A model generated the notes under the pieces. That model did not search any database. It had not been told where the DNA came from and saw nothing but the letters and a program-made list of their open reading frames with translations. A stretch of 64,000 nt of DNA from Paracoccus sp. (in: a-proteobacteria) (lineage in GTDB: Bacteria > Pseudomonadota > Alphaproteobacteria > Rhodobacterales > Rhodobacteraceae): positions 228,975-292,974 of the forward strand of contig NZ_JAUNTW010000002.1 of NCBI RefSeq assembly GCF_030538495.1. The letters run 5' to 3'. A program made the translations under genes and the position numbers. How positions within the stretch are numbered: position 1 is the first letter of the stretch; the number at the start of each line of letters is the position of its first letter. Below, in pieces: positions 3,562 to 14,467 of the stretch.

Positions 3562-4652
3562 ATCCCCACCAAGGCAAAAAAGATCGAAAACAGCGCATCC
3601 GCCATGATCACCGCGAAAATCGCCGCGACAACAGCGGATGAGGTCATGCGCCCCAGACTTTCGGTGTCTTTGCCAACCCGCATCCCGGCGTGACAGCCGA
3701 TGACGCCGATCAGCAGGGCAAAGACCGGCGCCTTAACCAAGCCCACAATCGCGTGGTTCAGGTTCGTATCGACGACCAGCCGCGCGCGGAACATCGACGG
3801 CGACACGCCCAGTTCGACCCATGACATAATCGCGCCGCCGACCAGCCCGGACAGATTGGCGACCAGCCCCAGAATGGGCAGCGTGATGATTAACGCCAGC
3901 ACGCGCGGCAAGATCAGCACCCGATCCGGGTCCAGCCCCAGCGTGCGCATGGCGTCGATTTCTTCGCGCATTTTCATCGCGCCGATGGATGCCGTCAGCG
4001 CCGATGCCGTGCGCCCCGCCACGATAATCGCGGTTAACAGGATGCCCAATTCGCGCAGCATGGATATGGCGATCAGGTCCACGACGAACACCTCGGCCCC
4101 GAATTGGCGCAGTTGTGTGGCCCCCTGAAAGGCCAGCACAATGCCGATCAGAAACCCCATCAGCGCGACAATCGGCACGGCCTTCAGCCCGGTTTCCTGC
4201 GCGTGATAGACCAGCGAGGTCAGGCGAAAATCGCGCGGATGCCGCAGGGCGCGCAGCAATGCGACGATAAAACGGCCCAGATATTCAACCAGTTGCGCCA
4301 GAATCTGCATCGCGCCCGCCGTGGCGCGCCCGATCTGTTCGACCGCCAGCCGCCACCCCGGTGCGCGCGCGGGTTCAGGGTCCGGCGTGGGGATGGCGTC
4401 GCGCACACGGTCCAGAAAATCGCGTTGATCGGGCGACAGGCCGGCCAGTTCGGCCCCTTGGGCGATCAGAAACCACGCCCCCGCCGTGTCCATGCGCGAC
4501 ACATCCGACACATCCAACACCCGCGCCCCCGCCACCTGCGGCGCAAGGCCCGCAATGCTGCGCACGGTCAGCGCGCCCGACAGATGCAGGGCATCCCCCC
4601 GGCGCGTCAGCGTCAGGGGGGCGGAGTCATCGGATGGCGGTGCGTGATCCAA
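3558..4652 (-). CDS. MlaE-like ABC permease with N-terminal STAS domain
   Basis: A 364-residue permease. The first ~100 residues (LTLTRRGDALHLSGAL..., ending in a GAWFLIA-like helix) look like a STAS domain, the fold of E. coli MlaB. The remaining ~250 residues are the hydrophobic MlaE permease domain, with the family's conserved cytoplasmic loop GAMKMREEIDAMRTLGLDP. The fusion therefore supplies MlaB and MlaE functions in one chain, which fits the absence of a separate mlaB. It is the first gene of the lipid-transport operon, 66 bases downstream of zapA, and may have its own promoter in that AT-rich gap. Confidence 0.9.
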   Translation of the reverse strand: MDHAPPSDDSAPLTLTRRGDALHLSGALTVRSIAGLAPQVAGARVLDVSDVSRMDTAGAWFLIAQGAELAGLSPDQRDFLDRVRDAIPTPDPEPARAPGWRLAVEQIGRATAGAMQILAQLVEYLGRFIVALLRALRHPRDFRLTSLVYHAQETGLKAVPIVALMGFLIGIVLAFQGATQLRQFGAEVFVVDLIAISMLRELGILLTAIIVAGRTASALTASIGAMKMREEIDAMRTLGLDPDRVLILPRVLALIITLPILGLVANLSGLVGGAIMSWVELGVSPSMFRARLVVDTNLNHAIVGLVKAPVFALLIGVIGCHAGMRVGKDTESLGRMTSSAVVAAIFAVIMADALFSIFFALVGI

Positions 4653-4718
4653 AGGCGGCCTGTCACAACGGTTTCGTCATCCTAACCCATGACAGATTAA
4701 GATAAGATTAAAAACCAC

Positions 4719-5078
4719 TTAGCCCCGCTGATCGTCCAGACGTTCGGCCAGAGCCTCGGCGCGGGCGGCCAGTTCGGCCATGGCCTCTTTCAGGTCCGCG
4801 GGGATCACCGGAACCTCGACCCGCTGGGGGTTGGTTTGCAGGCGGTTCAGGGCGCGTTCGGCCTTATCCGCGCGTTCTTCGAGCGCGGCGAAACGGTCGG
4901 CCAGCATCAGCCCAGCCAAGAGCAACAGGCGCGGTTCGGGAACGCGCCCCGCCTGCGACAGAATTTGCTGCGCTTCGTCGTTCAGAATGGCGGCGGCGCG
5001 TTGCAGCAGACGTTCTTCGCCATCGGCGGCACCGACGCGATATTCTTTGTGTCCGATGGTGAATTCGACTTCGGCCAT
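4719..5078 (-). CDS. zapA: Cell division protein ZapA
   Basis: A 119-residue cytoplasmic protein that bundles FtsZ filaments at the division ring. The N-terminal VEFTIGHKEYRVGA and the downstream AAAILNDEAQQI helix are typical of ZapA. The C-terminal half is a predicted coiled coil rich in Glu, Ala and Arg. It lies three bases after the stop of an upstream coiled-coil gene on the same strand, so the two are probably co-transcribed and may act together. The family is recognised with good confidence, although ZapA proteins are short and variable. Confidence 0.88.
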   Translation of the reverse strand: MAEVEFTIGHKEYRVGAADGEERLLQRAAAILNDEAQQILSQAGRVPEPRLLLLAGLMLADRFAALEERADKAERALNRLQTNPQRVEVPVIPADLKEAMAELAARAEALAERLDDQRG

Positions 5079-7352: not shown

Positions 7353-7568
7353 TCTGTCCCTTTGGTTTCGTTCGGATCAGGTCGGATCGGGCCACGCCAT
7401 ACGCAGCCGCCAAGGCGCAAAACCTGCGCGCGACGGGTAAAGAATGTTAAACCCTGCGTGATGGTTCCCCTTATCGCGGATGACGTAGCGGAACCCACCG
7501 GCAAAAGCGTGGCTTTCCAAGGGGACGCGCCGCGCCTATAACCGCGCCACCAACTGCCCGAGGTTCCC

Positions 7569-8153
7569 ATGCGCCAAGCCACCATCACCCGCGCCACTGC
7601 CGAAACCCAGATCGAGGTCACGCTGAACCTTGACGGCACCGGCGTTTATGACAACCAGACCGGCGTGGGTTTCTTCGATCACATGCTGGATCAGTTGTCG
7701 CGTCATTCGCTGATTGACATGACCGTGCGCGCCACCGGCGATCTGCATATCGACGACCACCACACGGTCGAGGATACCGGCATCGCCATCGGTCAGGCTC
7801 TGACCCGCGCGCTGGGCGATAAAAAGGGCATCCGCCGTTACGGCTCCTGCCATCTGCCAATGGATGACACGCAGGTGCGCGCGGCACTGGATCTGTCGGG
7901 GCGGCCCTATCTGGTGTGGAATGTCGATTTTCCGACGCAGAAAATCGGCACCTTTGATACCGAACTGGTGCGCGAATTTTTTCAGGCGCTGTCCACGCAT
8001 GGCGGCATCACGCTGCATATCGACCGGCTGCACGGGTTCAACAGCCACCACATCGCCGAAGCCGCGTTTAAGGCCGTGGCCCGCGCGCTGCGTGATGCCG
8101 TGGAACCCGACCCACGCAGCGACGCCCTGCCGTCCACGAAAGGCGCGCTGTGA
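7569..8153 (+). CDS. hisB: Imidazoleglycerol-phosphate dehydratase
   Basis: Sixth step of histidine biosynthesis: converts imidazole glycerol phosphate to imidazole acetol phosphate, in the cytosol. The 194 residues are the usual length of the monofunctional enzyme. The manganese-binding histidine motifs are present: [23 protein letters not shown] (about 61-70), and [13 protein letters not shown] near 157-169. The stop codon overlaps the hisH start as TGATG, so the two genes are translated as a pair. I found no further his genes downstream in the window. Confidence 0.98.
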
Positions 8154-8782
8154 TGCAGGTCGCACTGATTGATTACGACAGCGGCAACCTTCATTCCGCT
8201 GAAAAGGCGTTGCAATTGATGGGCCGGGATGAGGGCGCGACCGTCATCGTCACCGCCGACCCCGAAGTGGCGGCGCGCGCGGATCGGATTGTTCTGCCGG
8301 GCGACGGTGCCTTTCCGGCCTGTCGCGCCGCTTTGGGTCAGGTCGATGGTATGGCCGAGGCGCTGCACGACGCCGTGCTGAACCGGGGCGTGCCGTTTCT
8401 GGGCATCTGCGTGGGGATGCAGATGCTGGCCACAACGGGCCATGAATATCGCGAAACGCCGGGGCTGGACTGGATCGGCGGGCAGGTGCGCGCCATCGAC
8501 GCACCGGGGCGCAAGGTGCCGCATATGGGCTGGAACGATCTGGTCATCGACCACCCCCACCCGGTTCTGAACGGCATCACTTCGGGCGATCACGCCTATT
8601 TCGTTCACAGCTGGCAGTTCCAGGTGGATGACCCCGCGCATCGTCTGGCCTGGACCGAATATGGCGGGCCGGTGACGGCGGTGGTGGGGCGCGACAACAT
8701 CATCGGCGCGCAGTTTCACCCCGAAAAATCACAGGCGGTCGGGCTGCGGCTGATTGGCAATTTTTTGCGTTGGAAGCCATGA
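8153..8782 (+). CDS. hisH: Imidazole glycerol phosphate synthase, glutamine amidotransferase subunit
   Basis: Hydrolyses glutamine and passes ammonia to HisF to make imidazole glycerol phosphate and AICAR. The class I amidotransferase triad is visible: Cys86 in GICVGMQ, and His189 and Glu191 in QFHPEKSQ. I chose the ATG that overlaps the hisB stop (TGATG) rather than the GTG one codon earlier; this gives 209 residues, full length. The gene ends with Trp-Lys-Pro and a TGA, and the bases around that end recur, degenerate, twice downstream. HisA and HisF, which often follow, are not here. Confidence 0.97.
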   Translation: MQVALIDYDSGNLHSAEKALQLMGRDEGATVIVTADPEVAARADRIVLPGDGAFPACRAALGQVDGMAEALHDAVLNRGVPFLGICVGMQMLATTGHEYRETPGLDWIGGQVRAIDAPGRKVPHMGWNDLVIDHPHPVLNGITSGDHAYFVHSWQFQVDDPAHRLAWTEYGGPVTAVVGRDNIIGAQFHPEKSQAVGLRLIGNFLRWKP

Positions 8783-8994
8783 GGAAAGGCCGGTTTGCGG
8801 CGGCGTGGGTTTTACAGCGTCGCTGCAGCGCCGCCAGACGATCTGGCTAACAACGCCCGTCCCGCCAGATTAAAGCAGGCCGGTAGCGGCAGTTGTGGGG
8901 AATGACACCATCTTCGGCCCCGCCCTCAGATTACGAAATATCACTACCGTTAGGGTTGCGGCAAATCGGGAACTTTCGTCGCCGGAAACCATAA
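8783..8994 (+). repeat. Degenerate tandem copy 1 of the hisH 3' end
   Basis: A hand alignment shows that the last ~120 bases of this unit match the last ~119 bases of hisH at about 79 of 120 positions with a single one-base gap. The unit closes with GGAAACCATAA where hisH ends GGAAGCCATGA. The match is strongest at GC(A/G)GGCCGGT and TGGGG...GACA.CATC.TCGG. The reading frame is not kept, so this is a decayed duplicate and not a gene. The first ~90 bases align more weakly with hisH. Confidence 0.8.
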
Positions 8995-9193
8995 CCAAGG
9001 GCCTATTTGCGGCGGCGCGGCTTTCACGGCATCGCTGCAACGTGGCTAATAACGCCCGTCCCGCCCGATTAAGGCGGGCCAGTGGCAGCCGTCGCGAGGA
9101 ATGGCACCTTCATCGGCCCCGCCAGTAGATGGCGAAATATCACTACCGGTAGGGTTTCGGCAAATCGGGAATTTTCATCGCCGGAAGCCGTAA
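8995..9193 (+). repeat. Degenerate tandem copy 2 of the hisH 3' end
   Basis: Closely similar to copy 1; by eye about four fifths of bases agree, and copy 1 has a 13-base insertion that explains the length difference. Shared blocks include AACGCCCGTCCCGCC, CGAAATATCACTACCG and GCAAATCGGGAA. It ends GGAAGCCGTAA, again at the position of the hisH stop codon. It is less like hisH than like copy 1, which suggests the two units were duplicated from each other after the first copy had already drifted. Confidence 0.8.
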
Positions 9194-9215
9194 GGGAAAG
9201 CGGATTTGCGGCGAC
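9194..9215 (+). repeat. Short start of a third hisH-tail unit
   Basis: Directly after copy 2 the sequence GGGAAAGCGGATTTGCGGCG repeats the start of the two previous units (GGAAAGGCCGGTTTGCGGCG and the like). The similarity is then lost, so the third unit is truncated. Confidence 0.55.
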
Positions 9216-9609
9216 CCGGTCGAGATGGTGACGCTCATGTCGAAACGCTCAACGCCCCCGCGGCCTTAGATCAGCCGGCCCATGAACCAATACCACCTTC
9301 CGACCGATTGGCCGCACGTACCAGATCGTCGCAGCCACCCATGGCGACACCGCGATCAACGCCGGTCCACCTTGACGCCGAACAGCAGCTTCCTTCGCAG
9401 CAACCCGCCGCGACAAAACACCGAATCAATAGATGCAAAACGCCGGGATCAGGGATGGATGACCGAAGAAAATCCCCCCTATGACGGGCATCTGGACGGT
9501 GTTCCCATCGACCGCCACGCCTTGCTTATCCCCCAACCTGCTAATCGCATTCCAAAACAACTCGACCGCTACATCCACAGGTCAATAGCAATTGCCCGAA
9601 CCGCTCTCA
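9216..9609. other. Gene-poor stretch, no supported gene
   Basis: No frame here has a ribosome-binding site, a recognisable protein motif or the third-position GC bias of the neighbouring genes. Small open frames exist on both strands, but they overlap one another and look accidental. It sits between the decayed hisH copies and the orphan intergenic repeat, and may be the remains of lost genes. I could not identify what they were. Confidence 0.5.
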
Positions 9610-9664
9610 TATCTTCTGTGCATAAATATCCCGCAGGGGGTCTGGGGGATGCGACATCCCCCAG
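9610..9664 (+). repeat. Dispersed intergenic element, copy a (orphan)
   Basis: Contains the core CTTCTGTGCnTAAATATCC, then a G-run, then a perfect hairpin with arms CTGGGGGATG and CATCCCCCAG. The same core and hairpin layout occurs at three other places in the window. Unlike the others, this copy is not next to the 3' end of any intact gene. Confidence 0.8.
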
Positions 9665-9755
9665 CGGTGACATCACACACCAACGGCGCGGCTTTCATCC
9701 AGACAGCCTTAGCGCAAACGAGCTGCAACCCGTCCGACCTGCCCGTCCCACATCC

Positions 9756-9778
9756 GTGCATTTGGTGGAGCCAAGGGG
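9756..9778. repeat. Copy of the tRNA-Ala 3' end (att-like direct repeat)
   Basis: TTTGGTGGAGCCAAGGGG here matches the bases covering the 3' end of the neighbouring tRNA-Ala (TTTGGTGGAGCCGAGGGG) at 17 of 18 positions. The match extends weakly a few bases to the left. The copy lies 177 bases away, on the side of the tRNA 3' end, in direct orientation. This is the geometry left by an element that integrated at a tRNA 3' end. No integrase is present. Confidence 0.6.
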
Positions 9779-9939
9779 CACGGCACCTTCGGCAATATTC
9801 TTATTATGATGTTGTAAATAAATCAAAACACCCAAGACTGCCGCTGCGGGAATTGCCGGATTTTGAACATGCGTCAACCCATGCATGGGCTGCGTATATT
9901 GATTCTATTGGATAAAAAGCGATTTCACGGAGGTGAGTT

Positions 9940-10015
9940 TGGTGGAGCCGAGGGGAATCGAACCCCTGGCCTCGTCATTGCGAACGACGCGCTCTACCAA
10001 CTGAGCTACGGCCCC
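9940..10015 (-). tRNA. tRNA-Ala (anticodon CGC)
   Basis: The minus strand folds as a complete 76-base cloverleaf: acceptor GGGGCCG/CGGCTCC, D arm GCTC...GAGC, anticodon stem CGTCG/TGACG with loop TTCGCAA, T arm AGGGG TTCGATT CCCCT, and an encoded ACCA end. Loop positions 34-36 read CGC, which decodes GCG (alanine). One G-T pair closes the anticodon stem. Confidence 0.96.
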
Positions 10016-10086
10016 ATATCGTTCGTTTTACGCATCGCGACAAAGCTGTCAAGATGACGGGCGCCCTGCCCCGTCATCTGATGTTA

Positions 10087-10671
10087 TCACGCCATTTTCC
10101 GCAGATAGGTCCATGTCGGCACGCGGGCGTTGCGGGCGACGGACCAGCTTTCGGCGTCGCCCAGATAGACAAAGCCAGAATTGGTCAGCACGCGGGCGGA
10201 ACCGGGATTGTCCTGAAACGCCTCGGCGAACAGGGTGCGGGACTGGTGCGGGTTGGCGGCGACCAATGCGGCCACAGCTTTGGTCGCGATGCCGGTGTTC
10301 CAGAACCCGGCCCCGACCCAGAACCCCAATTCCGATTGCGCGCCGTCAATCCGGGTCAGCGACACCACGCCCAACAATTCGGCCAGCTTATGCGCAGACC
10401 CGTCAATCGCCCAAACATCTTCGGCGCGATCCGCAGCCAGTGAGCGGGCCACAAAACTCTCTGACGCGCCGGGCGGCAACGGATGGGGAATCGCCCGCGT
10501 TCCTTGCGCCACGCGCTGATCGGCGGTGTAATGCGCAATCAGCCCCGCATCCGACGGACGCAGCGGGCGCAGAACAAAGCGTTCGGTTTCGATAACCGGC
10601 TGATCCAGCGTCAGCCCATCATGCAGATCGTCCAACGGTGTTCCCCCTCTCATGGGTGCTGAAATGACCAT
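10087..10671 (-). CDS. GNAT-family N-acetyltransferase
   Basis: About 194 residues in one GNAT domain of the RimJ/RimL-like type, which transfers acetyl from acetyl-CoA to an amine. After an acidic N-terminus comes ETERFVLRPLRPSDAGLIAHY. The acetyl-CoA fold is suggested by ELGFWVGAGFWNTGIATKAV and by NPGSARVLTNSGFVYLG near the end. I chose the ATG preceded by GGGGGG; a longer form would start at a TTG inside the hairpin downstream of rpmA. The acceptor substrate is unknown. It lies downstream of rpmA on the same strand but beyond a hairpin, so is probably a separate unit. Confidence 0.85.
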   Translation of the reverse strand: MVISAPMRGGTPLDDLHDGLTLDQPVIETERFVLRPLRPSDAGLIAHYTADQRVAQGTRAIPHPLPPGASESFVARSLAADRAEDVWAIDGSAHKLAELLGVVSLTRIDGAQSELGFWVGAGFWNTGIATKAVAALVAANPHQSRTLFAEAFQDNPGSARVLTNSGFVYLGDAESWSVARNARVPTWTYLRKMA

Positions 10672-10690
10672 GATTCCCCCCGGAATTGGC

Positions 10691-10718
10691 AAGGGGACCG
10701 GCTTGCGCCGATCCCCTT
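10691..10718 (-). terminator. Hairpin downstream of rpmA
   Basis: On the minus strand AAGGGGA-CGGC and GCCG-TCCCCTT form a long stem around GCAA, just after the rplU-rpmA operon. No clear T-run follows, so it may terminate weakly or protect the mRNA end. Confidence 0.5.
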
Positions 10719-10742
10719 TAACATCATTATGTTAACAGCGGG

Positions 10743-11015
10743 TTACTCGGCTGCGTCGAGGCTGGCGGGCACCACCGAAATAAAGGTGCGGCCTTTCAGA
10801 CCTTTGCGGAAGTTGACGTGACCATCGGTCAGCGCGAACAGCGTGTGATCGCGGCCCATGCCGACATTGTCACCCGGCCACCATTTGGTGCCGCGCTGAC
10901 GCACGATGATGTTCCCGGCAATCGCTTCCTGACCGCCAAACAGTTTCACGCCCAAACGGCGACCAGCAGAATCGCGACCGTTGCGCGAAGAACCGCCTGC
11001 TTTCTTATGTGCCAT
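10743..11015 (-). CDS. rpmA: 50S ribosomal protein L27
   Basis: A 90-residue ribosomal protein near the peptidyl-transferase centre. The N-terminus [16 protein letters not shown] and the following GRRLGVK are unmistakable for L27. There is no cleaved N-terminal extension of the Firmicutes type. An AGGAG precedes the ATG. It follows rplU by 29 bases on the minus strand in the conserved rplU-rpmA order. Confidence 0.98.
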
Positions 11016-11044
11016 GCGTTATCTCCTCAGGCTTGGGTGGCTTA

Positions 11045-11419
11045 TCAGGCCGTTTCGGTTTCAGCGGTGCGGGTGCGTGCGCCGACAGCGGCTTTGACGC
11101 CGGTTTTGTCTGCGCCCGTTTCCAGCACGTCCGTGACGCGCAGCAGGGTCAACTGCTGACGGTGGCCACGGGTCCGCTGCGAGCTGTGTTTACGGCGGCG
11201 TTTCACAAAGGTGATCACCTTATCCGCTTTGATCTGGTCGATCACTTCGGCCTGAACACATGCGCCGTCAACCAGCGGAGCGCCAAGGGTCGAACCGACC
11301 ATCAGAATATCGTTGAACTGGACTTTGTCGCCAGCGACGGCGTTCAGCTTTTCCACGCGCAGGACATCGCCCGCCTGCACTTTGTATTGCTTGCCGCCCG
11401 TTTTCAGAACTGCGAACAT
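11045..11419 (-). CDS. rplU: 50S ribosomal protein L21
   Basis: 124 residues beginning [14 protein letters not shown], the canonical L21 start. An upstream in-frame extension is rejected because AAAGGAAAA sits right before this ATG. The core ends at [17 protein letters not shown] tail of about 30 residues (rich in Thr, Ala, Glu) follows, as in many alphaproteobacterial L21 proteins. First gene of the rplU-rpmA operon, with a ~280-base leader region shared with the divergent metallopeptidase gene. Confidence 0.97.
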
Positions 11420-12664: not shown

Positions 12665-14467
12665 TTAACCCGCCTTTTCCTCAAGCGTCAGCCATTCTTC
12701 TTCGGCGGCGTCCAAGGCAGCCTGACGTTCGGCCAAAGCCTCGGTCGCCTTTTGGAATTTGGCGGGGGCGGTTGCGAACAGGTTGGGATCGGACAGAAAT
12801 TCGGTCAGCTTGGCCATTTCTGCCTCAAGCCGTTCGATGATGCCGGGCAGCGCCTCAAGCCGGTGCTTTTCGGTAAAGGACAGCCCCGATTTCGCGGGCT
12901 TGGCGCGTTCCGGCGCAGCTTTCGTGACCGGCGCGGGCGCGGCCTCCACGGGTGCGTCGGGCGCGCGTTGATCGCGGTAATCGGACCAGCCACCGGCATA
13001 GACGACGGCGCGGCCGTCCCCTTCCATGGCGACGGTCGTGTCGGCCACGCGGTCGATAAAGTCGCGGTCGTGGCTGACCAGCAGCACCGTGCCGTCATAA
13101 TCGCCCAGCAAATCCTGCAACAGATCCAGCGTTTCGACGTCCAGATCGTTGGTCGGTTCGTCCATCACCAACAGGTTTGACGGCTTCGCCATCAGCCGCG
13201 CCAACAGCAACCGCGCCTTTTCCCCGCCCGACAGGCTGCGCACCGGCGCGCGGGCCTGCGCGTCGTCGAACAGAAAATCCTTTAGATAGGCAACGACGTG
13301 CTTCGGCTGGCCGCGGACCATGACCTGATCGGCGCGGCCCGATACGCGCATATCCGGGTCGCCGGTCAGCGATTCCCACAGCGTCTGATCCGGGTTCAGC
13401 GCCGCGCGCGCCTGATCGAACACCGCGATTTCCAGATTGGTGCCAAGACTGACCGTGCCGTCATCGGGCGCAATTTCGCCCGTCAGCATTTTAATCAGTG
13501 TGGTTTTCCCGGCACCGTTCGGCCCGACAAAGGCCACACGGTCTCCCCGCAAAATCCGCAGATCAAACGGGCGCAGAATGACACGATCCCCGAAACGCTT
13601 GGAAATGCCGGTCGCCTCGATCACCTTTTTGCCGGATGTCGGCCCGGAATCCAAAGCCATAGCCGCCGTTCCCTGCCGCCGGATTTGCCCCGCACGTTCG
13701 GCCCGCAGCGCCGCCAGAGCGCGGACACGGCCCTGATTGCGTTTGCGGCGCGCGCTGATGCCTTCGACGGCCCAGCGGGCTTCGGCTTTGATTTTGCGGT
13801 CTAATTTGTGGCGGGCGTCGTCTTCGGCGGCCCAAGTGGCTTCGCGCCAATCCTCGAACGCCTCGAACCCCTTTTCCTGACGCCGCACATCGCCGCGATC
13901 AATCCACAGGGTCGCGCGCGTCAGACGGCGCAAAAAGGCCCGGTCGTGGCTGATCAGCACAAAACCCGCGCGGGTCTGCGACAGGTGTTCCTCCAGCCAG
14001 CCAATCGCCTGAATATCCAGATGGTTGGTCGGTTCGTCCAGCAACATCAGTTCCGGCGCCTGCGCCAACAGCCGCGCCAAAGCAGCACGGCGGCGTTCGC
14101 CCCCCGACGCGGTATCAACCGGGCGGGCGGGGTCGAACTTCAACCCCTCGGCCGCCATATCGACGCGGTATCCTTCGCCATCGGGCAGGCCCGCACGGGC
14201 GAAATCGCCCAGCGTGGCAAAGCCCGACAGGTCAGGATCCTGTTCCATATAGCCGACCGACACCCCCGCCGACAAAACCACCTGCCCCCGATCGGGTTCG
14301 ACCAGCCCGGCCATCACCTTCATCAGCGTGGATTTGCCGGACCCGTTACGCCCGACCAGTGCCACCCGATCACCGGGCTGCACCGTCAGCGACAGGTTAT
14401 CAAACACAGGATCGCCGCCATAGGTCAGCGAAATATCGGTCAGTTGTAACAAAGGAGCGCGTGCCAT
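12665..14467 (-). CDS. ABC-F family ATPase (Uup-like)
   Basis: A 600-residue soluble protein with two ABC domains and no membrane segment. Walker A motifs are GRNGSGKS (about 38) and GPNGAGKT (about 316). Signatures are SGGERRRAAL and LSGGEKARLLL, and each half has a Walker B with DEPTNHLD or DEPTNDLD. A charged linker lies between the domains. A C-terminal coiled coil (about 530-600, EKHRLEALPGIIERLEAEM) is typical of Uup, which acts on ribosomes and DNA-related processes. The exact role cannot be assigned from sequence. Transcribed singly. Confidence 0.9.
   Translation of the reverse strand: MARAPLLQLTDISLTYGGDPVFDNLSLTVQPGDRVALVGRNGSGKSTLMKVMAGLVEPDRGQVVLSAGVSVGYMEQDPDLSGFATLGDFARAGLPDGEGYRVDMAAEGLKFDPARPVDTASGGERRRAALARLLAQAPELMLLDEPTNHLDIQAIGWLEEHLSQTRAGFVLISHDRAFLRRLTRATLWIDRGDVRRQEKGFEAFEDWREATWAAEDDARHKLDRKIKAEARWAVEGISARRKRNQGRVRALAALRAERAGQIRRQGTAAMALDSGPTSGKKVIEATGISKRFGDRVILRPFDLRILRGDRVAFVGPNGAGKTTLIKMLTGEIAPDDGTVSLGTNLEIAVFDQARAALNPDQTLWESLTGDPDMRVSGRADQVMVRGQPKHVVAYLKDFLFDDAQARAPVRSLSGGEKARLLLARLMAKPSNLLVMDEPTNDLDVETLDLLQDLLGDYDGTVLLVSHDRDFIDRVADTTVAMEGDGRAVVYAGGWSDYRDQRAPDAPVEAAPAPVTKAAPERAKPAKSGLSFTEKHRLEALPGIIERLEAEMAKLTEFLSDPNLFATAPAKFQKATEALAERQAALDAAEEEWLTLEEKAG

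Follow-up and report, generated by a model that had tools for sequence, protein, structure and literature searches.

When integrative elements replace the end of a gene, additional 3′ ends of the resident gene are left downstream. In compact bacterial genomes, neutral duplications of great age can rarely still be recognized. In the 64,000-nucleotide stretch of DNA analyzed here (the window), the gap behind hisH shares with such replacement the presence of extra 3′ ends of the resident gene downstream but differs from it in that no element or integrase was found and no short attachment core was seen. The array in this gap is also like partial tandem gene duplication with pseudogene decay, in which a copied piece adjoining the gene is unable to work alone and decays without constraint. 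The hisH array differs from this general kind in that it comprises the 3′ end together with downstream DNA, was apparently formed in two nested steps, and is still readable at approximately 0.3 changes per site. An array of such a kind was absent from the titles and abstract openings covered by a literature search, those of PMC3449122 and PMC522871 included.

The hisH gene (8153–8782, plus strand), which encodes a glutamine amidotransferase subunit, is intact on the basis of its open frame and a match to the Pfam GATase family (PF00117, E 7.8e-18), and its upstream neighbor is hisB, encoding imidazoleglycerol-phosphate dehydratase (7569–8153, plus strand; PF00475, E 2.9e-68). The closest named relative of the HisH protein was that of Paracoccus homiensis (83% amino acid identity), and the genome, by sequence comparison, belongs with Paracoccus. 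Local alignments defined the copied part of hisH, designated T0, as 8657–8782 with the stop codon included. It is followed on the same strand by a spacer that was copied in the next unit (S0, 8783–8867), a decayed copy of the hisH tail (T1, 8868–8994), a second spacer (S1, 8995–9065), a second decayed tail copy (T2, 9066–9193), and the weak start of a third spacer (S2, 9194–9219). T1 and T2 matched T0 at 85 and 84 of 126 positions, respectively, and each other at 104 of 127 (82%); the same one-base insertion is present in both. The spacers S0 and S1 agreed at 59 of 71 positions, with S1 being approximately 13 bases shorter.

Local alignment of hisH with 8783–8994 and with 8995–9193 gave a score of 82 in both cases, a value reached by none of 500 dinucleotide shuffles (maximum scores of 34 and 42, respectively). 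The two units aligned to each other with a score of 228 (0 of 500 shuffles, maximum 34), and Tandem Repeats Finder independently reported a repeat at 8844–9213 with a period of 199. As in a decayed partial tandem gene duplication, the copies are adjacent to the gene, lie in the same orientation, and are homologous to it above chance, and they have a common origin. The description of this region in the initial annotation as decayed tandem duplications of the hisH end is thereby confirmed, and the shuffled-sequence comparison that it had proposed, in which no shuffle equaled the observed score, left that observation standing. Its units of 212 and 199 bases are real as a tandem repeat, but the resemblance to hisH is confined to the last ∼126 bases and starts at approximately 8657 rather than 8571, so each unit consists of a spacer and a ∼126-base tail and not of 212 bases of hisH; the remainder of each unit is spacer copied from the DNA behind the hisH stop codon. 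The start of a third unit, also proposed there, was retained as a weak trace of ∼26 bases at 9194–9219, where the first 30 bases matched S0 at 19 and S1 at 17 positions. The local score between 8783–8850 and 9194–9300 was matched by one of 500 shuffles, whereas similarity to hisH itself within 9194–9500 was at chance level (258 of 500 shuffles reached the score). The match of S2 to S0 extends over ∼26 bases compared with the ∼85 predicted by plain tandem duplication, so that a deletion or some other later alteration is required.

The history of the tail was read against an alignment with 89 hisH tails of the genus (129 columns). The counts of 89 include one row (L085) that seems to have been mis-trimmed, probably as a result of a hisH frame shift, and for which the tail score was 16 and a match to T1 lies 30 bases behind the called stop. 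Agreement with the genus consensus was found at 109 columns for the resident tail, 80 for T1, and 81 for T2. The resident tail differs from the genus consensus at 20 columns; at nine of these its state is found in T1 as well as in T2, and at five both copies have the genus state. On this basis the copies most likely derive from the hisH of their own lineage, before its latest few changes. The resident gene ranked first among 90 candidate sources both on the shared-state score and on identity, by a small margin (summed T1 and T2 identities of 170 compared with 167 for the next candidate), and an origin in the resident gene is again what is expected of a decayed partial tandem gene duplication. 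T1 and T2 agreed with each other against the resident tail at 28 columns, at 23 of which they also stood against the genus. Because they have in common the one-base insertion and 20 substitutions relative to the inferred ancestor, the alignment favors, although it does not prove, a nested order in which one copy was made and decayed before a further duplication took place; exchange of sequence by T1 and T2 could equally have yielded these common changes. The identity of hisH to its nearest relative did not drop at the tail, and the junctions of the array are too decayed to be placed to the base or to reveal recombining sequences.

Changes were then assigned relative to the inferred ancestor, omitting the three of 129 columns that lacked a clear ancestral state. 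At codon positions 1, 2, and 3, T1 had 12, 10, and 14 changes (p 0.72) and T2 had 10, 11, and 14 (p 0.69), compared with 2, 0, and 4 for the hisH tail. The copies thus changed approximately six times more than hisH, under a rule that takes the resident state as ancestral wherever it equals the genus consensus and so favors few hisH changes. The frame is broken by the inserted base and the changes are spread evenly over the codon positions, in agreement with the earlier view of the units as non-coding and with the lack of coding constraint in a decayed partial tandem gene duplication. The pattern points to neutral decay, with no sign of function. When common changes were counted once, there were 25 GC-to-AT and 11 AT-to-GC changes; arrays such as this one, being unconstrained copies of a known sequence, are useful for measuring mutation bias. 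The 36 changes in 126 columns of T1 are similar in magnitude to the four-fold site difference to six genomes among the nearest in the sample, which ranges from 0.364 to 0.396 when the two branches are summed, so the first duplication is old, perhaps as old as the split from those genomes, the comparison being a rough guide.

We consider the best explanation, with a probability of about 0.85, to be a short-range tandem duplication of the hisH end and the DNA downstream of it, followed by neutral decay and then by a second duplication. The first event would have run from inside hisH (∼8657) past the stop codon into the downstream DNA, and would have been harmless and retained because the upstream gene stays whole with its own stop. 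The functionless extra copy would have lost its frame and gathered mutations, after which the decayed segment of spacer and tail would itself have been duplicated, through slippage or unequal exchange, to give T1 and T2, with decay continuing in both. Two nested short-range tandem duplications of this kind account for the data, and the repeated failed recombination that had been suggested is not needed. The hisH array suggests that stop-spanning duplications persist through doing no harm, and we infer both this cause of survival and the duplication mechanism itself. A selection filter of this type would explain why the surviving fossils at hisH and at a Hint gene (see below) consist of gene ends, and hisH would then not be exceptional; the array at tsf (also below), which lies wholly behind its gene, fits a filter for harmlessness equally. 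We rate the mechanism as ordinary and the preservation as mildly unusual, the record being unusually readable.

A rebuilt hisH end, a repeat family, a functional RNA, and an integration scar were each tested and set aside. If an integrative element carrying a replacement end had integrated at the hisH 3′ terminus and was later lost, the displaced ends would be left in the gap, in keeping with copies that end at the end point of hisH, with a tRNA-Ala gene (9940–10015, minus strand) whose 3′ end faces the same gap, and with the hisH/tRNA-Ala joint not being seen among the listed matches of relatives, in which matches to 9880–11100 mostly begin beyond the tRNA. However, none of the 10 open frames of at least 50 amino acids in 8870–9915 gave a Pfam match that reached the family cut-off (lowest E value 0.17), and no match to 8783–9260 was obtained among 72,556 plasmid and 50,697 phage records. 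Neither an integrase gene nor a remnant of one was found beside the array in these searches, to which decayed pieces could be too weak to register. The similarity is even over ∼126 bases and continues past the stop, with divergence spread over the tail, as judged from the alignments, in place of the short, nearly identical core that an integration scar would show where the gene ends, and hisH identity is steady through the tail. An integration scar is therefore very unlikely.

About as improbable is the reading of the units as a functional array, either a 3′ untranslated RNA or a regulatory one, in favor of which the 82% identity of T1 and T2 could be cited. The RNA folds of the two units were ordinary (z −1.23 and −1.28, with 25 and 27 of 200 shuffles folding as well) and differed from each other, so that a fold stabler than shuffles and common to the copies was not observed. 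Rfam yielded no match at gathering score in 7500–10500, the snoRNA-like match at 8775–8836 having a score of 25.4 compared with a gathering score of 50, and 8700–10100 contained no promoter-like site and two terminator-like sites compared with 1.6 expected. The array was also not found in relatives. The 478-base stretch 8783–9260 had a single match at E ≤0.001 in its own genome and no real match in the other 124 genomes searched from this genus (125 with its own); approximately five candidate places were scored per genome, the lax limit of E 10 giving short matches in every genome, and the best match outside its own genome had E 0.0016 over 35 bases. No tail copy was detected behind hisH in 121 other loci (best score 36 compared with 82 here), which were assigned to Paracoccus and other Rhodobacterales by titles or kinship and were compared over up to 1 kb of downstream DNA (at least 200 bases in 121 of 122 loci and the full 1000 in 101 of 122). 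Four Paracoccus loci of the named collection were identical to genomes listed under the same genus throughout the hisH tail and a further 200 bases downstream, which supports placing the genome with Paracoccus; four genomes occur twice among the 122 loci, leaving 117 of the 121 distinct. The comparison with an abundant family that the initial annotation had called for thus found the units once in their own genome and in none of the 124 others, and the observation held. The further suggestion that the hisH end was part of, or rebuilt from, a dispersed repeat family is hardly credible: nothing beyond the tandem copies themselves speaks for it, many copies were found in neither the genome nor the genus, the plasmid and phage records searched gave no match, and the hisH tail is little changed, lies near the genus consensus, and is as close to its nearest relative as the rest of hisH.

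The remainder of the gap between hisH and tRNA-Ala holds other material. A decayed ectopic copy of another locus at 9434–9756 (plus strand), in which a palindromic repeat lies between the 3′ ends of two genes, encoding an N-formylglutamate amidohydrolase and a class IV aminotransferase, was matched by alignment to two convergent genes of contig C17 (G000:C17:149967–150327; PF05013 and PF01063), from which it differs by one 39-base gap and smaller gaps. The dispersed, terminator-like palindromic repeat within it (9602–9669) had at least 46 additional genomic matches, 43 of them with E ≤1e-3, when 40 of 131 candidates were scored, and some of these matches form opposite-strand pairs at a single place. 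This repeat is nearly unchanged inside the otherwise decayed copy. In relatives, the acetyltransferase side of the gap (identified by Pfam) lies far from hisH; in G047 and G039, for example, each of which is a single contig, hisH is at 2.25 and 2.05 Mb and the acetyltransferase side at 1.68 and 1.22 Mb, respectively. For this reason, the gap looks like a rearrangement joint where debris can gather.

As a genome control, local direct repeats separated by less than 3 kb, of which one copy or both lay largely beyond the called genes (genes being called by a simple codon-usage script), were collected from 864 kb of the same genome (the window and 40 stretches of 20 kb) and from 400 kb of each of two relatives. 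The genome itself gave 16 matches at eight places, and three of these places were alike: hisH, L242, and L231. In L242, between rplT and a Hint-domain gene identified by Pfam (gene stop at 14083, minus strand), the region 13341–14157 contains decayed copies of the 3′ end of the Hint gene with a terminator-like hairpin. The copies at 13348–13471, 13481–13612, and 13799–13852, the last without the hairpin part, were each matched by 0 of 300 shuffles, and the spacing of the first two is approximately 130; weaker pieces lie at 13701–13747 (3 of 300) and 13899–13979 (8 of 300), and two further pieces were at chance. In L231, the DNA downstream of tsf (identified by Pfam) was copied together with a hairpin at 4043–4219, with a further part at 4818–4867 (0 of 300 shuffles each), and the tsf tail itself was not copied (25 of 300). 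Within this array (3787–4867), the stretch at ∼4341–4800 resembles a broken rpiB gene when read by eye. The 800 kb of the two relatives gave three and one matches that, judged by eye, comprised cobalamin genes, a transposase pair, calcium-binding repeats, and an unclear pair (L270), with no decayed 3′-end array among them. Three arrays in 864 kb compared with none in 800 kb are too few to claim an excess. That this lineage has a recurring process by which the 3′ ends of genes, or the terminator DNA behind them, are copied into decaying tandem arrays, with hisH, the Hint gene, and tsf as instances and long gaps being largely such fossils, is unlikely in our estimation; should several arrays in one genome have a common cause, it would become possible to test how long gaps behind genes arise.

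The other five places were set aside as two tRNA genes when read by eye (L246), low-quality sequence beside a run of N (L248), a dispersed element (L254), a repetitive region (L260), and repeats within a long open frame (L229). An earlier pass over 464 kb had given 40 matches, most of them within long frames. In L224, positions 61–335 and 901–1154 are 66% similar and relate the 3′ end of a called gene to an upstream stretch, which may be a paralogue or a decayed copy; this pair is absent from the later filtered list because both copies count as coding.
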